NCBI RefSeq assembly: GCF_002028545.1
Contig: NZ_MWPQ01000055.1
Coordinates: 1 to 64,000 of the forward strand
Length of the DNA: 64,000 bases
Reading direction: 5' to 3'
Source: Nitrobacter vulgaris
GTDB lineage: Bacteria > Pseudomonadota > Alphaproteobacteria > Rhizobiales > Xanthobacteraceae
In this document: one piece after another, positions 5,963 to 13,045 of the stretch
Numbering within the stretch: position 1 is the stretch's first letter
Layout: every line of letters begins with the position of its first letter
Translations under genes and position numbers: made by a program
Notes under the pieces: generated by a model
The model's database searches: none
Told to the model about the DNA's origin: nothing
Seen by the model: only the letters and a program-made list of their open reading frames with translations

Positions 5963-6463
5963 CTACTGGTCTTGCGGCCTATCGTTCGGCGGCGTCGGCT
6001 GGGTGCGATGCTGGGCCATGAAGGCATCGAACTCTTCCTTGTCCTTGGCGTGACGAAGCCGTTCGAGAAAGTCCTTGAACTCCTTCTGCTCGTCCTCGAG
6101 CCGCCGCAGCGTCTCCATGCGATACTCGTCGAAGGCGCGGTTACCGCTGGACGGCGCGCCAAAACCGCGGAAGCCAAAACCGCGGCGCTCCATATGGTCC
6201 CGCATCCGGTCCATCTTGTACTGCATCCGTTGCATTTTGCTCTCAAACCGGTCGTTGCTCCAGCAGCCCATTTTCCTGCTCCCTAGAGTGAAAAAGAGAA
6301 TCGCGAGACCGATCGGCCACCACACCATGAAGCCCAGCACGATCAGGACAATCCGGAACGGATGCCAGGGCGCGTCCGTGAAACAGTGGGAATACGGGGG
6401 CTGACCTTGGCCCCGCGCATTGTTGGGGCCATTCCAGCGATCGTAGTCAGCGGTGTGGGCCAT
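5963..6463 (-). CDS. DUF2852 family protein
   Basis: A 166-residue protein of unknown function with the DUF2852 layout. It has a short polar N-terminus (MAHTADYDRWNG), one strong membrane segment rich in Trp (about residues 35-60, FRIVLIVLGFMVWWPIGLAI), and then a long charged helical region (about 70-150) with many Arg, Glu and Met that is likely coiled coil and cytoplasmic, for example ETLRRLEDEQKEFKDFLERL. The Pro-rich tail is short. It is alone in its transcription unit, with a terminator downstream and a 19-bp palindrome 35 bp upstream of the start that matches one at the TetR gene behind it. A link to that regulator is inferred. Confidence 0.8.
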   Translation of the reverse strand: MAHTADYDRWNGPNNARGQGQPPYSHCFTDAPWHPFRIVLIVLGFMVWWPIGLAILFFTLGSRKMGCWSNDRFESKMQRMQYKMDRMRDHMERRGFGFRGFGAPSSGNRAFDEYRMETLRRLEDEQKEFKDFLERLRHAKDKEEFDAFMAQHRTQPTPPNDRPQDQ

Positions 6464-6497
6464 AGGCCTTCTCCATGAACGGCGTCATGCCACGTGA

Positions 6498-6516
6498 ATG
6501 TAAATAACATTTACAT
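6498..6516. promoter_or_regulatory. Perfect palindrome upstream of DUF2852, likely TetR operator
   Basis: ATGTAAATAACATTTACAT is a perfect 8-bp inverted repeat with a 3-bp centre, 35-53 bp upstream of the DUF2852 start codon, where a promoter would be. It shares 14 of 19 positions, including the outer ATGTAAA/ACAT pattern, with the palindrome at the TetR start (7445-7463). Length and symmetry are as expected for a TetR dimer site. Confidence 0.6.
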
Positions 6517-6732
6517 AGGTAGCCCACTAAAGGCTTTTGTCAAGCGTGACTTTGACTGGAAATGCGGGGTTTTGGCGGTGCTACGGTTTCCCGCCGTTGT
6601 AAGGTCTCGTCACATTGAAAGCGGCAAATACTGGCGAGCAGATCGGAAAGCCTATCCATAAGAAGCTCTTGGCCGATTGCCGCGACCGCACGATAAAACC
6701 CAGTCCCGGTATACGCGCAGCTGAACGGTTGG

Positions 6733-7446
6733 TCAGGTCGCGGACTTTTGATCCCACGGCCCTCGCGGCGGCTTGGCCGGGGCGTTCGGGTCTTCAGGCG
6801 ACCTGCGTTCGGTCGGAAAGCCGAGCCCTCGCAGATAAATCAGCACGCCGGCTTCGAGCAGATCTTCGGCGGACATCGGCAGCTTGCGTCGCGCCGCGTC
6901 GCCGCGGCCGAACAGGGAGGCTATGCCGTGCGCCAACGACCAGATATGCAGCGCCATCATCAAAGCCGGTGGTCGCGCGACGCCCGGCGGTGTCAGTGCT
7001 GCAAGCCGTTCCGCCGCGGCGCGAATGATGCTGAAGGCGCGCTCGCTCGCGGCTGACAGCATCGGATTGACATCGGTCGGCAGCCCGGATTCGAACATCG
7101 CCGAGTAATAAGCCGGTTCGTTGCGGGCGAAGGCGAGATAAGCGCGGCCGACGCGCTCGAACGCGCTGACGGTATCCGGGCGTCCGTCATCCCATGCCTT
7201 GGTCAACACCGCCTCGAACTGCTCGAAGCCGCGTTGCGCGATGCTCGCCAGCAGTTCATCGCGATCACGGAAGTGCCGGTACGGCGCCGCCGGACTGACG
7301 CCTGCGGAACGCGCCGCATCGGCGAAGGTGAAACCCGCCGCGCCTTTCTCGGCGATCAGGCCGAGTGCCGCCTCCAGCAGGGCCTCCTTCAGATTGCCGT
7401 GATGGTAGCCCCGCTCCGGGCGGCGATGGTCCTTGCGCCAACTCAT
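6733..7446 (-). CDS. TetR/AcrR family transcriptional regulator
   Basis: A 237-residue one-component repressor. The start MSWRKDHRRPERGYHHG is chosen because the N-terminal TetR helix-turn-helix follows directly; the open frame extends 42 codons further without homologous content. The DNA-binding region is at about residues 15-65 (ALLEAALGLIAEKGAAGF, then SAGVSPAAPYRHFRDRDELL). The C-terminal ligand-binding part (about 80-215) contains FARNEPAYYSAMFESGLP and ALHIWSLAHGIASLFG, as in the WHG-type TetR C-terminal domain. A palindrome overlapping its start codon suggests self-repression, and a matching one precedes the DUF2852 gene. The ligand is unknown. Confidence 0.88.
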   Translation of the reverse strand: MSWRKDHRRPERGYHHGNLKEALLEAALGLIAEKGAAGFTFADAARSAGVSPAAPYRHFRDRDELLASIAQRGFEQFEAVLTKAWDDGRPDTVSAFERVGRAYLAFARNEPAYYSAMFESGLPTDVNPMLSAASERAFSIIRAAAERLAALTPPGVARPPALMMALHIWSLAHGIASLFGRGDAARRKLPMSAEDLLEAGVLIYLRGLGFPTERRSPEDPNAPAKPPRGPWDQKSAT

Positions 7447-7466
7447 GTGAAGAGTTTTTACATGAG
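7442..7466. promoter_or_regulatory. Palindrome at the TetR start, likely autoregulatory operator
   Basis: Arms CTCATGT (7442-7448) and ACATGAG (7460-7466) form a perfect 7-bp inverted repeat with an 11-bp spacer. Its 19-bp core, read on the coding strand as ATGTAAAAACTCTTCACAT, aligns with the perfect palindrome upstream of DUF2852. The site overlaps the TetR start codon, so bound protein would block transcription or translation start. Confidence 0.6.
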
Positions 7467-7626
7467 CACGCGGGAAACACCACTCGTTTCGTCCTGCTTT
7501 CATTCGAGAAGCAGGGCGAAATCCAGCATGAAGAACCGCAACCCGTCGCGGCGAACCCCGACCTCCGGTCAAACGAGGCCGGTTCGCCGGAAGTCGGCCA
7601 ATGGCTGTGGCGGCCTGATGCGGAGC

Positions 7627-8043
7627 CTATCGGCGCGCGACCTCTGCGCGCAACCGTTCTTCCTGCTCGCGCAGTTCCGGCGTGAACGCCTCGCCGAAAT
7701 CCTCCGCGTCGAACACCTGACGCAGTTCGAGTTCATCTCCGGGTGCGAAAGGCGCGCGTTTCATCCACTGGATCGCCTCGTCTTTTGAACCGACCTCGAT
7801 CAGCCAGAATCCGCAGACGAGATCACTGGTCACCGGGAATGGGCCCTCTGTCACCACAGGTGCAGCGCCTGAATATTTGATGCGCGCGCCTTTCGAGGTC
7901 GGATGCAACCCCTCGCCCGCCTGCATCACACCGGCCTTCACCATCTCTTCGTTGAACCGACCCATCGCGGTCAGCATTTCGGTGCTCGGCATCTCGCCCG
8001 CTTCGGTTTCCTTCGTCGCCTTCACAATCACCATGAAACGCAT
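7627..8043 (-). CDS. YCII/DGPF-domain protein 1
   Basis: A 138-residue protein of the YCII (DGPF) family, small dimeric alpha/beta-barrel proteins with mostly unknown roles. The start MRFMVIVKATKETEAG is placed 7 bp after an AAGGAG ribosome site; upstream in-frame codons have no family similarity. The signature DGPF appears here as EGPF (VTEGPFPVTSDLVCGFWLIEV, about residues 70-90). The C-terminal 35 residues are a charged extension (EAFTPELREQEERLRAE). It is monocistronic and has TGTCGG-N17-CGTC about 60-80 bp upstream, the same as three other units here, so it is probably controlled by the ECF sigma factor at 9994-11262. Confidence 0.88.
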   Translation of the reverse strand: MRFMVIVKATKETEAGEMPSTEMLTAMGRFNEEMVKAGVMQAGEGLHPTSKGARIKYSGAAPVVTEGPFPVTSDLVCGFWLIEVGSKDEAIQWMKRAPFAPGDELELRQVFDAEDFGEAFTPELREQEERLRAEVARR

Positions 8044-8099
8044 CGCGATTCTCCTTCGATCCAGTGATCCAGGCCGTTTCTTGGCGGCCCCGCAATGAA

Positions 8100-8126
8100 G
8101 ACGGGCGGACTGCGGCCTCTCCGACA
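8100..8126 (-). promoter_or_regulatory. ECF-type promoter upstream of YCII-1
   Basis: On the minus strand: TGTCGG (8126-8121), a 17-bp spacer, CGTC (8103-8100). The same two boxes with the same spacing stand upstream of the SRPBCC gene and the YCII-2/sigma operon. From memory, ECF42 sigma factors use TGTCGA at -35 and CG(A/T)C at -10. The -10 box is 57 bp before the start codon. Confidence 0.6.
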
Positions 8127-8163
8127 TGTCCGGTAGAAATTTTTAGGCGTGTGCGCTGATCCC

Positions 8164-8817
8164 TCAGTCGCCCTGCGGAAACATGTGGAAATACGGCTCG
8201 GCGTCCTTCAGCACGCGGGCATAGGACGGTCGCGCCTTGAGACGTTCCAGATAGGCGGCAAGATGTGGATGGCTGTCAGCATATGGCAGCACCCTGGCGG
8301 CATAGAACAACGCCGGCGCGGCTGCGCAATCCGCCATCGAGAAATCGTCGCCGGCTGCCCAGCTGCGCGATGCCATCTCGCGCTCGGCGATGTCATAAGC
8401 CGCGCGCATCCGCGTTTTCGCATCCTCAACGCCGTGCGGGTCCTTGCTACCGGCTGGCCGTAGCCGGTCGCCGACCACCTTTTGCATATGGTTGTGAATG
8501 TGCAGATCGTAAAAGCGGTCCTTCAGCCGCACCTCGCGCTCCGCGTCGCGATCTTGCGGGATGAACCGCGTCCCGCCCGGATAATACCTGTCGATATACT
8601 CAATGATGATGCTGGATTCCGGCACCACCTCGCCGCGGGCGGCATCCTGCAACACCGGAAATTTGCCGACACCCCACAGCTTCAGCAGCACCGCGCGCTC
8701 GTCCGGATCGCCGAGATCGACCGACATAGCCGTGAACGGCGTCGCGTTCTCATGGAACGCGATTAGTGCCTTGTGGCAATAGGACGACAGCGGATGCATG
8801 TACAGCGTCAGCGGCAT
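8164..8817 (-). CDS. Glutathione S-transferase family protein
   Basis: A 217-residue two-domain GST. The thioredoxin-like N-terminal domain spans about 1-85 (YMHPLSSYCHKALIAFHEN at the start, VPESSIIIEYIDRYYPG at the glutathione gamma-glutamyl site), with Ser/Cys near position 11-13 in the place of the catalytic residue. The all-helical C-terminal domain follows, with the DFSMADCAAAPALFYA motif (N-capping box). The start is set by a GGGAGAA ribosome site 5-11 bp upstream of MPLTLYMH. The substrate cannot be told. It stands alone between YCII-1 and a small membrane protein; its upstream region lacks the TGTCGG/CGTC boxes of its neighbours. Confidence 0.88.
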   Translation of the reverse strand: MPLTLYMHPLSSYCHKALIAFHENATPFTAMSVDLGDPDERAVLLKLWGVGKFPVLQDAARGEVVPESSIIIEYIDRYYPGGTRFIPQDRDAEREVRLKDRFYDLHIHNHMQKVVGDRLRPAGSKDPHGVEDAKTRMRAAYDIAEREMASRSWAAGDDFSMADCAAAPALFYAARVLPYADSHPHLAAYLERLKARPSYARVLKDAEPYFHMFPQGD

Positions 8818-9110
8818 GATGTTCTCCCGATAAGCGAGCGCTTTGCAGCACTGCATGTGATGACGCAAGACGAAACCATCACGCGTCGTCAAGCGCACAT
8901 GAGCGCGTATCGCGCGTTTTCCATCGCAACAAATTCCCGCCGCATTGCTTGATCACGCTTGCATCATTGCTTCGGCCGCGGGGACAAGATGCGGGCGCAG
9001 CAATTCCAAGGGGCGTTCCGCGTAAACATCGATTCAATTTTGGCTCGCGCGCAAGCCGTGATGAGTCATGCCCGAACCACACTGGCCAAAACCAAATGGG
9101 GGAGGACACC

Positions 9111-9224
9111 ATGACCGATGCCACAAAGCGGACGGCTTCCGGCACGCTCGCCGATATGTTCGCGCATATCATGGCGGTAACGGCGCTGCTGGTGATCGCA
9201 GCCTGCGTCTTCTACGTGAAATAG
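9111..9224 (+). CDS. Small single-helix membrane protein, 37 residues
   Basis: A short frame MTDATKRTASGTLADMFAHI followed by a hydrophobic helix (about residues 16-34, MAVTALLVIAACVFYV) and a final Lys. It is preceded by GGGGGAGGACACC, a strong ribosome site at good spacing, which is the main support for it being real. No family is recognised. It is on the opposite strand to its neighbours, between the GST and SRPBCC genes. A longer in-frame start exists upstream but lacks such a ribosome site. An 8-bp inverted repeat (9262-9269/9285-9292) lies 40 bp downstream and may end the transcript. Confidence 0.55.
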   Translation: MTDATKRTASGTLADMFAHIMAVTALLVIAACVFYVK

Positions 9225-9356
9225 CTCTTCGGCCGCCGTCACGGCATCGCGAACACGACTGCGCGAGAGGAAAAATAAGCGAATCTCTCGCGTGTGTCCT
9301 CGAAGGGGACATGGGAATTGATTTTCATCCTGCTCCCCCAAGTATGAGCGGTTAAT

Positions 9357-9893
9357 TCAGCTTTCCACTGCCTTGCGCAGATTGGCGAGACCAGCCTCGA
9401 AATCAGTACCGACCATGCGATCCATGTTGATGAACACGTGCATGATCTTGCCGATGAACGGCGTCGGCCCCTGCATCGTCCATGTGACACGGGTGCCATC
9501 GCCCTGAGGCTGCAATGTGAATTCGGCGGTGTTGTGCGCCTCGAAGGGTTTCAGGAAATCGAGCTTGATGACGACATTCTGGGAAGCGGGCGCATCGAGG
9601 ATTTCCATGTGGCCCGTGCCGATATTGCTGTCGCCTTCCCAGGCGTAGGTCGCACCTTTGCCGCGTTCGGCGCCGCCGTAGGTCCGCTTCATCGCGGGAT
9701 CGCGGGTCTCATAAGGCGACCACCGTCCCCACTGATGGAAGTCGGCAATCAGCGGGAAGATATTCTCCGGCGACGCCTTGATGACGGCCGACCGCTCAAC
9801 GCGGAACGTATCGGGCTTGGTCGAAGCCAGTATTAGAACAACGGCGAGAGCAATGACGATGATGGCAATGACGGCGGCAAGGACTTTCAACAT
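9357..9893 (-). CDS. SRPBCC (polyketide cyclase/START-like) membrane-anchored protein
   Basis: A 178-residue protein with an N-terminal hydrophobic helix (residues 1-25, LAAVIAIIVIALAVVLILAS) and a START-like SRPBCC fold after it: VERSAVIKASPENIFPLIAD (helix-grip start), WSPYETRDPAMKRTYGG, and the long C-terminal helix ending LANLRKAVES. Such proteins bind hydrophobic ligands; no substrate can be assigned. The anchor would place the domain on the outer face of the inner membrane or in the periplasm. TGTCGG-N17-CGTC lies 39-65 bp upstream, between this gene and the sigma gene, so it appears to have its own sigma-dependent promoter even though it follows the sigma gene on the same strand. Confidence 0.85.
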   Translation of the reverse strand: MLKVLAAVIAIIVIALAVVLILASTKPDTFRVERSAVIKASPENIFPLIADFHQWGRWSPYETRDPAMKRTYGGAERGKGATYAWEGDSNIGTGHMEILDAPASQNVVIKLDFLKPFEAHNTAEFTLQPQGDGTRVTWTMQGPTPFIGKIMHVFINMDRMVGTDFEAGLANLRKAVES

Positions 9894-9931
9894 GGCAATC
9901 CCTCAAGTCTGGATAAACAGGACAGCCCAAG

Positions 9932-9958
9932 GACGAACGGCGAGGCGACATCCCGACA
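9932..9958 (-). promoter_or_regulatory. ECF-type promoter upstream of the SRPBCC gene
   Basis: On the minus strand: TGTCGG (9958-9953), 17-bp spacer, CGTC (9935-9932), 38 bp before the SRPBCC start codon. Sequence and spacing are identical in form to the sites at 8100-8126 and 11653-11679. Confidence 0.6.
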
Positions 9959-9993
9959 GGGCCGGACACTTTTTTGAATCAGCCCCCAGAACC

Positions 9994-11262
9994 CTACTCC
10001 GCCGCCCTGGTGCGAGGCGCGCCGTCTTTCATCAGCCGATCCAGATGCATGCGGATATGCGCCGCCTCCGCCGAGGTATTGGCGAGCGCGATGGCGCGGT
10101 CGAATGCAACGCGGGCTTCCTCGTCGCGGCCGAGTTGCATCAGGTATGCGCCCTTCGCGCCGAAGAAGTGAAAATAGCCTGACAGGCGCTGCTCCAGCGG
10201 CGAGATCAGCGCGAGCGCCGCTTCCGGCCCCTTCACCTTGGAGAGAGCCACGCTGCGATTGAGCGTCACCACCGGCGACGGCTGCAATTGCTCCAGCGTC
10301 GCGTAAAGAAGATCGATCTGGCGCCAGTCGGTATCCTCCGGCTTTGGCGCGCTCGCATGAAGCGCCGCGATTGCCGCCTGCACCTGATAGGGGCCGGCGC
10401 GACGATGGCGCATCGCCTTGTCGATCAGCGCCGTGCCTTCCGTGATCATCTTTCTGTTCCACAGACTGCGGTCCTGATCCTCGAGCAGGATCACTTCGCC
10501 GTCGGAATCAAAGCGTGCGGCAGCGCGGGCATGCTGCAATAGCAACAGTGCCGTCAGCCCCATGATCTCCGGCTCGTTCTGAAACAGCCGAAGCAGCAGC
10601 CGCGCCAGGCGAATCGCCTCCTCACATAGCGGCGCCCGGACCTCGGAGGTGCCGCCGTTCGCCGAATAACCTTCGTTGAAGACGAGGTAGATCATGGCGG
10701 CAACGACGCCGAGCCGCTCGCTGCGCTCGACCGCGCCAGGCGTCTCGAACGCGACGCCGGCTTTCGCAACCGCCGCCTTGGCACGGGTGATGCGCTGCTC
10801 CATCGCAGCTTCGCTGACGAGAAATGCACGCGCGATCTGCTTCACCGTCAGACCCGAGACGATACGCAGCGCCAGCGCGATCTGCTGCGTCGCAGGCAGA
10901 TCAGGATGGCAGCAGATGAACAGCAAACGCAAAATATCGTCGCGGTAGTGCGAGCCGTCGAGCCGCTCGGCGATTTCACTCTCGGCGTCGCCGAGGTCGG
11001 AGATCACATCGTCGTCCGGTAATTCCTGCTGCTTGCTCCGCCGCCGCACCTCGTCAAGCGCGGCGTTGCGCCCGACCATGATCAGCCACGCCGCCGGATC
11101 GCGCGGCGGCCCGTTTTCCGGCCAGTTCCTCAAGGCCCGCAAGCAGGCGTTCTGGTACGCCTCCTCGGCTGTGTCGAGATTGCGGAAATAGCGCAAGAGC
11201 GCGCCGAGCGCCTGGGGTCGCGCCGCCGTCAGGGCCGCATCGATCCAGGCGACGTCGGTCAT
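9994..11262 (-). CDS. ECF RNA polymerase sigma factor, ECF42/DGPF-associated type
   Basis: A 422-residue sigma-70 family factor, over twice the length of a usual ECF sigma. Region 2 is at about residues 10-80 (LGALLRYFRNLDTAEEAYQNA and DPAAWLIMVGRNAALDEVRRR) and region 4 at about 108-165 (LRIVSGLTVKQIARAFLVSE helix-turn-helix). A C-terminal extension of about 240 residues contains FNEGYSANGG and TPR-like helices. This architecture, with a DGPF protein gene directly upstream and overlapping by 4 bp (ATGA), is that of the ECF42 group, which lacks a classical anti-sigma factor and is thought to be controlled by its own extension. It probably recognises the four TGTCGR/CGTC promoters found nearby, including its own. 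The signal is unknown. Confidence 0.88.
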   Translation of the reverse strand: MTDVAWIDAALTAARPQALGALLRYFRNLDTAEEAYQNACLRALRNWPENGPPRDPAAWLIMVGRNAALDEVRRRSKQQELPDDDVISDLGDAESEIAERLDGSHYRDDILRLLFICCHPDLPATQQIALALRIVSGLTVKQIARAFLVSEAAMEQRITRAKAAVAKAGVAFETPGAVERSERLGVVAAMIYLVFNEGYSANGGTSEVRAPLCEEAIRLARLLLRLFQNEPEIMGLTALLLLQHARAAARFDSDGEVILLEDQDRSLWNRKMITEGTALIDKAMRHRRAGPYQVQAAIAALHASAPKPEDTDWRQIDLLYATLEQLQPSPVVTLNRSVALSKVKGPEAALALISPLEQRLSGYFHFFGAKGAYLMQLGRDEEARVAFDRAIALANTSAEAAHIRMHLDRLMKDGAPRTRAAE

Positions 11263-11627
11263 GTCAGACCCCCTCCGGAATCGAACAGGCCGACGGGACG
11301 GATTTCATAGGAGCCACCCGGATTCGCCTCGCCGAGTTCCTGCGCCGCCTCCAGCGCCTCCTCAAGGTTCTTGCAGTCGATCAGGTAGAACCCGAGCAAC
11401 TGCTCCTTGGTTTCTGCGAACGGACCATCGACGATCAACGGCGGGTTTTCCTTGCGCAAAGTGGTCGCCGCGGTGGTCGGCAGCAGCCGTGCCACCGGTC
11501 CAAGCCGGCCCTGCTTCTTCAACTTGTCCTGCACGACCGCGAGCTTTTGCATGACGGCAGCGTCCTGCTCCTTGCTCCAGGAACAGACGACATCCTCGTT
11601 ATGGTAGCAAAGTAGGGCATAGAGCAT
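11259..11627 (-). CDS. YCII/DGPF-domain protein 2, sigma-factor partner
   Basis: A 122-residue YCII-family protein with the exact DGPF signature (VDGPFAETKEQLLGFYLIDC, about residues 66-85). The start MLYALLCYHNEDV is an ATG two codons inside a TTG-started frame, preceded by an AAGGA ribosome site. Its stop codon overlaps the sigma-factor start (ATGA), which implies translational coupling. DGPF proteins next to ECF42 sigma factors are a known pairing; whether the protein is a target, an enzyme or a modulator is not known. The operon promoter is TGTCGG-N17-CGTC at 11653-11679, so the operon would be self-activating. Confidence 0.88.
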   Translation of the reverse strand: MLYALLCYHNEDVVCSWSKEQDAAVMQKLAVVQDKLKKQGRLGPVARLLPTTAATTLRKENPPLIVDGPFAETKEQLLGFYLIDCKNLEEALEAAQELGEANPGGSYEIRPVGLFDSGGGLT

Positions 11628-11652
11628 GCGCAATGGTCCTTCTTCCTCTCAG

Positions 11653-11679
11653 GACGAACCAGTATGCCGATAGCCGACA
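11653..11679 (-). promoter_or_regulatory. ECF-type promoter of the YCII-2/sigma operon
   Basis: On the minus strand: TGTCGG (11679-11674), 17-bp spacer, CGTC (11656-11653), 26 bp before the YCII-2 start codon. It implies positive autoregulation of the sigma factor. Confidence 0.6.
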
Positions 11680-11838
11680 CATGACCCAACAAAATTTCCG
11701 GGGGGATTTTTTGGGCGACAGCACGCGCAAGGTCCAAACGCCCTTGGATAGCCGACGCGACCATTGAGTTATGGAAACGCGCCTTTTGACTTCCCGGCCC
11801 CCAACCAGGATAACGGGTTCGGGTTTGAGAAAAAGAAG

Positions 11839-12312
11839 CTAACCGTTCGCCGCCGCCTCGATATCGGCAATGACGATCTTCTTCATCTTCAACATCGCCT
11901 TCATGGCACGACCGGCTTTGGCTCGATCCGGATCCTGCAACAGGCGCGGCATCATATCGGGTACCACCTGCCACGACACGCCAAACCTGTCCTTGAGCCA
12001 CCCACACTTAAGGGGCCCGCCGCCATCGGCGGTGAGCTTGTTCCAGTAGTAGTCAACCTCGTCCTGCGACTTACAGTCGATGCTGAACGAGACAGCTTCA
12101 CTGAACTGGAAATGCGGGCCGCCGTTCAACGCGATGAACCGCCTTCCCTCGAGATCAAAGGCGACGGTCAGCACCGTTCCGGGCGGCTTAGAGCCGCCTT
12201 CGCCATAATAGGTCGTTTCGACGATCTTCGAATTGCTGAACACGGTGGTGTAAAATTTCACTGCTTCCTCGGCCTGCGTATCGAACTAAAGGAACGGGGT
12301 GATGTTGGGCAT
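11839..12312 (-). pseudogene. VOC/PhnB-like glyoxalase-fold protein with nonsense codon 9
   Basis: Conceptual translation from the ATG at 12312 gives MPNITPFL, then TAG (12288-12286), then FDTQAEEAVKFYTTVFSNSK and a full PhnB/VOC-type domain (former 3-demethylubiquinone methyltransferase-like family) to AAANG. Family members have FLWFD at this place, so the TAG replaces a TGG Trp codon by one base. The rest of the frame is undamaged for 150 codons, including GGPHFQFSEAVSF and GWLKDRFGVSWQVVP, which suggests a recent mutation. A GTG at 12261 could restart translation, giving 140 residues lacking the first beta strand; no ribosome site was seen there. A sequencing error cannot be excluded. Its TGTCGA/CGTC promoter is intact. 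Confidence 0.75.
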
Positions 12313-12394
12313 CGTGGGCTCCATGATTGCGCGCCCCGGTTGATGCGAGGCACCCCGCCAGCAACCGTCGGGTTCCGCAAGGACGTGGCCAAAG

Positions 12395-12420
12395 GACGAC
12401 CGGCCCCGCCGCGATCGACA
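12395..12420 (-). promoter_or_regulatory. ECF-type promoter upstream of the broken VOC gene
   Basis: On the minus strand: TGTCGA (12420-12415), 16-bp spacer, CGTC (12398-12395). The -35 box is the exact consensus I recall for ECF42; the spacer is one base shorter than in the other three copies. It lies 83 bp before the start codon. Confidence 0.5.
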
Positions 12421-12583
12421 TCACTAAGGGATTTTTATATCAGACATTTTTCCGCCTGGATTCGGCGACGTCCCGCCATTGTCGGCCATGCAAATCATCG
12501 TGACCGTCGGGGCATGGTGGTCCGGAATATCGGCGTGAGGCGCGCTCAAATCTTAAGAGGGATCTTCGTGTGATCCCCGGTGA

Positions 12584-13045
12584 TCAGACCTGATCGGCCT
12601 TCATCGCGACACGAAGCGCCTTGGGTATCGGCTTCGCCCGCCCTTCGGATATGAACGCCACCTTCACCCTCGCGTCCAGCAGCAGCACGTCGCCACACCG
12701 CACCTCCTGATGCAAGGTGATCGAGGCGCCCCGGACTTCCAGTGGCCGCGTCACGATGTCGAGTACGTCGTCCATCCGCGCGGGCTTCAGAAACTCGAGC
12801 TGCATCGCGCGCACCACGAAGGCAAAACTGGGCGCCTCGCTTTCGGCCTCCGCGAACAGCGCGCGCTGGTCGGCGCCGAGCAGCCGCAGATAGTTGCTAC
12901 GTCCACGCTCCATGAAGCGCAGATAATTAGCGTGATAGACGAGGCCGGTAAAATCCGTGTCCTCATAATAGACGCGGACTTGCATGTGATGCCTGCCGTC
13001 GCGAATCTCGCCGTCGAGATGGCGGGTCTGCGGCGACGCATTCAT
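12584..13045 (-). CDS. ybgC: Acyl-CoA thioesterase YbgC (hotdog fold)
   Basis: A 153-residue hotdog-fold thioesterase of the Tol-Pal-associated YbgC family. The active-site motif is [21 protein letters not shown] (about residues 24-44), with the catalytic Asp in DTDFTG and the conserved [15 protein letters not shown] follows. YbgC hydrolyses short acyl-CoA and is linked to phospholipid metabolism. Its start overlaps the ruvB stop by 4 bp (ATGA). It is the last gene of ruvC-ruvA-ruvB-ybgC; the tol genes, which often follow directly, begin 7 kb further on. Confidence 0.92.

Follow-up and report, generated by a model that had tools for sequence, protein, structure and literature searches.

A probable ECF42 sigma factor regulon in Nitrobacter vulgaris, with conserved TGTCGG-N17-CGTC boxes and candidate distal targets

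The promoter consensus TGTCGA/CG(A/T)C of the extracytoplasmic function (ECF) sigma factors of group ECF42 is attributed to their Streptomyces and Pseudomonas representatives. According to a review (PMC8999054), these factors carry a tail rich in tetratricopeptide repeats (TPR) that is essential for activity, and have a YCII-related gene nearby, the product of which has been suggested to take part in regulation. In Sinorhizobium meliloti, a 2018 study (PMC6180224) reports that overexpression of the ECF42 factor RpoE10 (SMc01150) raises a gene for a predicted hydrophobic-ligand-binding domain and glyoxalase-like genes, and that deletion of these sigma factors has no major effect on free-living growth. 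SMc01149 appears, from the wording of that study, to be an SRPBCC protein, and the RpoE10 promoters printed there read TGTCGG-N17-CGTC in three of three cases. Here we describe the gene of a stress-type sigma factor and its neighbours in a window of Nitrobacter vulgaris DNA (the whole 64-kb stretch that was analysed, positions 1 to 64,000 of contig NZ_MWPQ01000055.1). Taken as a whole, the locus is best explained as an alphaproteobacterial ECF42 sigma regulon, a reading of which we are confident.

The sigma factor (422 aa; 9994..11262, minus strand) had been placed in ECF42 by the initial annotation, and the assignment held: sigma2, sigma4, DUF6596 and a TPR-like tail follow one another, and a DGPF/YCII gene lies upstream. 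Models for sigma2 (PF04542) and sigma4 (PF08281) matched, no sigma3 model did, and DUF6596 (PF20239) matched at 122 bits; we infer that DUF6596 is a mark of ECF42, a group that the paper on this domain does not name. TPR models stayed below the curated cut-off in the window protein, and 26 of the 27 sigma proteins in the alignment matched TPR_2 at E<=0.1. The predicted structure (pLDDT 71.3 on average and, for residues 231-390, mostly above 85) has helices from residue 177 to residue 413. Its best Foldseek matches were largely TPR proteins, together with ECF sigma factors; three of the TPR matches had E<=0.001, with a poor global superposition. The predicted tail agrees with the C-terminal, TPR-like extension of some 200 residues that marks the group. 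Together with the YCII gene beside it and the putative promoter TGTCGG-N17-CGTC, which has the TGTCG- and CG-C boxes of this group, the sigma factor fits ECF42 as described in PMC8999054.

On the minus strand, the genes succeed one another in the order YbgC thioesterase, interrupted VOC gene, YCII-2, sigma factor, SRPBCC, glutathione S-transferase (GST), YCII-1 and TetR. The initial annotation had proposed four promoter boxes in this cluster, and all four were found, exact and on the minus strand. The first precedes the operon of YCII-2 and the sigma gene (11653..11679, TGTCGG-N17-CGTC). YCII-2 (11259..11633, minus strand) is a DGPF-type protein (PF03795, 73.6 bits) in which D-G-P is invariant across 16 of 16 aligned sequences and F nearly so, and its stop codon overlaps the ATG of the sigma gene (ATGA); the -10 box lies 19 nt before its TTG and 25 nt before the next ATG. 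A second box of the same form (9932..9958) stands 38 nt upstream of the SRPBCC gene (9357..9893, minus strand; Polyketide_cyc2, PF10604, 68 bits), and a third (8100..8126) 56 nt upstream of YCII-1 (7627..8043, minus strand; 138 aa, PF03795, 50.3 bits, with EGPF instead of DGPF). The fourth, TGTCGA-N16-CGTC (12395..12420), is off-consensus and lies 82 nt before the ATG of the VOC gene.

The bare pattern taken alone is only moderately unusual. A loose version with spacers of 15-18 matched 12 times in the window; 100 shuffles gave 4.79 +/- 2.53 matches, and 2 of them reached 12. A scan of the 3.9 Mb genome against a control, as the initial annotation had suggested, gave 99 matches to TGTCGR-N16/17-CGTC and 34 to the reversed pattern. 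Four of the 99 fall within 4.3 kb, which occurred in 398 of 20,000 random placements (about 2%), so that the clustering by itself is weakly significant evidence against chance. These two figures, the frequency of the bare pattern and the modest improbability of the cluster, are what favours the view that the boxes arose by chance or are used by a different ECF sigma factor. What makes the boxes convincing is their conservation.

We compared 80 loci encoding this sigma factor, in which the closest named relatives of the protein are from Nitrobacter (93 and 91% identity). A YCII gene lies directly upstream of the sigma gene in 79 of the 80. The comparison of boxes in related genomes, also envisaged by the initial annotation, showed that the box is kept: of 79 relatives, a set that is phylogenetically uneven, with Neorhizobium over-represented and loci that are not independent, 63 have TGTCGG-N17-CGTC in the 150 nt that precede the YCII-sigma operon. 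Any other spacing between 10 and 24 was seen in 0 to 2 relatives, the opposite strand gave one, and TGTCGA at N17 was found before the YCII-sigma operon in 0 of 79. In 35 of the 80 relatives, the same box is also present within 300 nt downstream of the sigma gene. Alignment of the 63 boxes brought out two features that had been overlooked, an A/T-rich block some 10-18 nt ahead of the -35 box and a T as second base past CGTC (97%); by eye, both are present at all four window sites. The consensus TGTCGA/CG(A/T)C had to be replaced: in this lineage the motif reads TGTCGG-N17-CGTC[CT]T, and departures from it, such as the TGTCGA-N17 box of a major facilitator superfamily (MFS) ortholog (L266), are rare.

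To score single sites, we trained a matrix on 124 distinct plus-strand boxes from 76 loci, leaving out the four nearest relatives. It spans the box together with the 20 nt before it and the 4 nt after it, with a 2-bit penalty for N16. This matrix, circular in its core (exact training boxes) and not in its spacer and flanks, ranked the four sites first to fourth in the 64 kb, with 38.5 for SRPBCC, 36.1 for YCII-2, 35.0 for YCII-1 and 18.8 for VOC. Besides shifted readings of these sites, nothing on either strand scored above 6, and the best score in the reversed window was 6.3. Seven of the 99 genomic matches exceeded 15, four of them being the window sites; the 92 with a score of 15 or below were treated as background.

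A further comparison concerned genomes with and without PF20239. The refined pattern TGTCGG-N17-CGTC[CT]T gave 167 matches in 49 genomes with PF20239 (0.67/Mb) and 56 in 52 genomes without it (0.29/Mb), 32 of the latter being counted negative by exclusion; the reversed pattern gave 0.23/Mb and 0.20/Mb, respectively. The difference was significant (Mann-Whitney p = 0.0004; p = 0.45 for the reversed control) in a comparison that ignores phylogeny and in which boxes belonging to the sigma loci contribute to the excess. In the spacing control, where N17 was placed before TTCGTCCT (a spacer of 19), 7 of 101 genomes had one match each, and the reversed version gave 3. A chance origin of the boxes was rejected on the basis of the spacing and conservation in relatives and the ranking by the matrix. 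The sharp spacing preference and conservation beside this particular sigma gene, the near-background frequency in genomes without PF20239 and the agreement with the ECF42 promoters in PMC6180224 likewise speak against service to another ECF sigma factor. We thus consider it most improbable that the boxes are fortuitous or belong to a different factor.

The initial annotation had also claimed that the sigma factor activates itself. In PMC6180224, overexpression of RpoE10 left SMc01151, the YCII gene that shares its operon, unchanged, and the authors remark on an overlap between the motif and the mapped start site. The S. meliloti data thus speak against a simple self-activation. These observations fit a situation in which the sigma factor controls its targets without controlling its own operon, the YCII-2/sigma box being used weakly or by another route. 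The retention of the operon box in 63 of 79 relatives would be hard to explain if it were unused, and we regard this alternative as unlikely.

We considered which genes carry such boxes near the 80 sigma genes. Besides 64 boxes at YCII-sigma operons, which were left out, 88 others were found, of which 4 scored below 15 and 84 above it. The 84 precede 40 VOC, 21 AHSA1-type SRPBCC, 6 DoxX-like, 5 YCII, 3 Polyketide_cyc2 SRPBCC (the type in the window), 3 SnoaL-like and 2 GST genes and 4 unassigned frames; the open reading frame for each box was picked by cross-similarity, and in the 4 unassigned cases the wrong frame may have been taken. Pfam searches with the same 84 proteins gave Glyoxalase 36, AHSA1 23, DoxX_2 6, YCII 5, SnoaL_3 3, GST 2 and DUF899 1. 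Judged from the boxes, membership of SRPBCC and VOC genes is common in this lineage.

The proposal that YCII-2/sigma, YCII-1 and an anchored SRPBCC gene are box-bearing genes was borne out. In relatives, the box precedes 5 YCII genes that are not part of the sigma operon, including those of L031 and L032. A similar TetR-type regulator is found near YCII-1-like genes in L031, L032, L044, L047 and L104; in the window it comes after YCII-1 (6733-7446, minus strand). The SRPBCC protein has a hydrophobic N-terminal stretch, read by eye, which is a probable membrane anchor. The box stands before the same SRPBCC type in L033, L039 and L095; in L034 it lies further upstream, the 300 nt next to the match having yielded none, and no box of this type was found in L035, L036, L058, L098 and L101. 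The GST gene between SRPBCC and YCII-1 (8164..8817, minus strand; PF13417/PF13410) had been set apart as a defined non-member. This stands for the window, where the best upstream score is -13.4, and does not extend to the relatives: of five with a GST nearby, two have it boxed (L039, L041), whereas in L033 and L050 it lacks the box. At 9111-9224, inside the 539-bp gap between SRPBCC and GST, the plus strand has a frame of 37 codons that includes a hydrophobic stretch.

The VOC gene (11839..12312, minus strand; 3-dmu-9_3-mt type) differs from the three others. Its frame starts with MPNITPFL and meets an in-frame stop at codon 9, and the initial view of a working direct member was not supported. 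The box departs from the consensus twice, its sixth base being A and its spacer 16 bases long, against TGTCGG in 63 of 79 relatives, and TGTCGA at N17 in none of 79, before the YCII-sigma operon; the A/T block and CGTCCT are kept. We considered the possibility that all four genes, VOC included, are intact and active, VOC starting at an internal GTG (12261) or the stop being a sequencing error. The site does retain its A/T block and CGTCCT and is fourth in the window ranking, and the remaining frame (11839-12261) is open, with 134.5 bits for PF06983. Yet, the stop replaces a Trp present in five relatives (L031, L032, L033, L034 and L100; Leu in the homolog of G006), an internal start would presumably remove the first strand of the fold, and the promoter deviates at base six and in the spacer at once, whereas its counterparts in L031, L033, L034 and L100 score 32.7, 36.9, 34.1 and 35.6. 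An intact VOC gene is therefore improbable in our view. The VOC box is probably an eroded ECF42 promoter, and it seems that the gene degenerated along with it. Since the rest of the frame is open and still scores 134.5 bits, the stop either arose recently or, possibly, stems from an error in the assembly. In L032 the VOC frame is intact and has no box, and promoter loss therefore also happens alone.

The initial annotation had treated the gene set as closed within 5 kb. This had to be given up, as high-scoring and partly conserved boxes were found elsewhere in the genome: one at 31.1 before an AHSA1-type SRPBCC gene (contig C15) and one at 32.1 before an MFS transporter gene (contig C23, near 124.8 kb). 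The regulon thus probably reaches beyond the cluster, to these two genes. A box at C2:46632 (L176, 27.4) was rejected as a target, both adjacent long frames being on the other strand. Orthologs of the AHSA1 gene were defined as loci of 54% identity or more (L227-L241), matches at 37% or less being left unscored; boxes above 15 precede 8 of these 15, the own genome included, namely 7 of 10 in genomes with PF20239 and 1 of 5 in those without. For the MFS gene, 12 loci of 50% identity or more among the matches listed (L257-L268) were retained, and 5 of these 12, again including the own genome, have a box above 15. The boxes before the two genes are shared with orthologs in other genera.

Several observations weigh against the regulon as read here, in addition to the uneven sampling of the loci, the circular core of the matrix, the neglect of phylogeny in the PF20239 comparison and the unchanged SMc01151. 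The structural model of the sigma factor is poor over residues 70-180, sigma4 included. The exact box is missing before the YCII-sigma operon in 16 of 79 relatives; seven of these keep a one-mismatch version by eye, and the sequence of one (L066) covers only 27 nt. A box above 15 is missing in 7 of the 15 AHSA1 orthologs and, among the matches listed, in 7 of the 12 MFS orthologs, including that of the Nitrobacter genome G002, in which the sigma gene is present. Conversely, two PF20239-negative genomes have boxes, at 26.8 before the AHSA1 gene in G014 and, exact and at 37.0, before a VOC gene in G006, which belongs to the genus Nitrobacter (L221, plus strand).

The G006 box is perhaps an orphan promoter left after loss of the sigma gene, which is kept in 5 of 9 genomes of the genus. 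Because of this patchy retention, the orphan box and the decay of both promoter and frame of VOC in the window, one may tentatively propose that the Nitrobacter regulon is being dismantled stepwise, with the distal AHSA1 and MFS boxes kept and YCII possibly acting as a signal-sensing partner that gates the TPR tail; we hold this scenario to be conceivable rather than probable. A second sigma factor of this type, 48% identical and with a PF20239 match, is encoded in G004 and G005, also of the genus Nitrobacter (L185, L186).

The analysis shows protein families, boxes, spacing, conservation and gene content, and from these we infer promoter activity, autoregulation, signal and physiology. The YCII-sigma operon would yield a sigma factor that sends RNA polymerase to an A/T block followed by TGTCGG, N17 and CGTC[CT]T. 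Its local targets would be its own operon, the second YCII gene and the SRPBCC gene with its probable membrane anchor, and its remote targets the AHSA1-type SRPBCC gene and the MFS transporter gene, the adjacent VOC gene being a former member that is being lost. A scan with Pfam and NCBIfam of the sigma factor and eight neighbouring proteins (5963-13045) revealed no anti-sigma family. For this reason, activity would most likely be gated by binding of another protein, perhaps the co-encoded YCII protein, to the DUF6596/TPR tail. As the targets have small-molecule-binding or modifying folds, the regulon would most likely serve to deal with small organic compounds that are reactive or toxic, a physiology deduced from fold types alone.

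A literature search that had most subscription papers outside its reach found no paper joining an ECF sigma factor, AHSA1 and glyoxalase; among papers mentioning Nitrobacter and ECF sigma factors in a search of the same reach, none was, by its title, on a Nitrobacter ECF42. The present analysis provides a clean lineage-specific description of an ECF42 promoter (A/T block, TGTCGG-N17-CGTC[CT]T), identifies VOC and SRPBCC genes as those most often boxed beside sigma genes of this type in the 80 loci that were compared, and points to candidate distal targets in a nitrifier. Compared with the Streptomyces venezuelae and Pseudomonas putida group, to which TGTCGA/CG(A/T)C is attributed, the motif here is TGTCGG/CGTC. 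By architecture, Sven_0747, Sven_4377 and Sven_7131 of S. venezuelae and ECF-10 of P. putida belong to the same ECF group, according to PMC8999054. The resemblance to S. meliloti RpoE10 lies in the YCII gene directly upstream of the sigma gene and in the TGTCGG-N17-CGTC promoters; there, one target operon is on another replicon, judging from the SMb gene names. In contrast to that system, Nitrobacter has a boxed second YCII gene and a boxed Polyketide_cyc2 SRPBCC gene, an MFS gene as distal candidate and an interrupted local VOC gene. The Nitrobacter locus is thus a well-supported case of an already known type of regulon.

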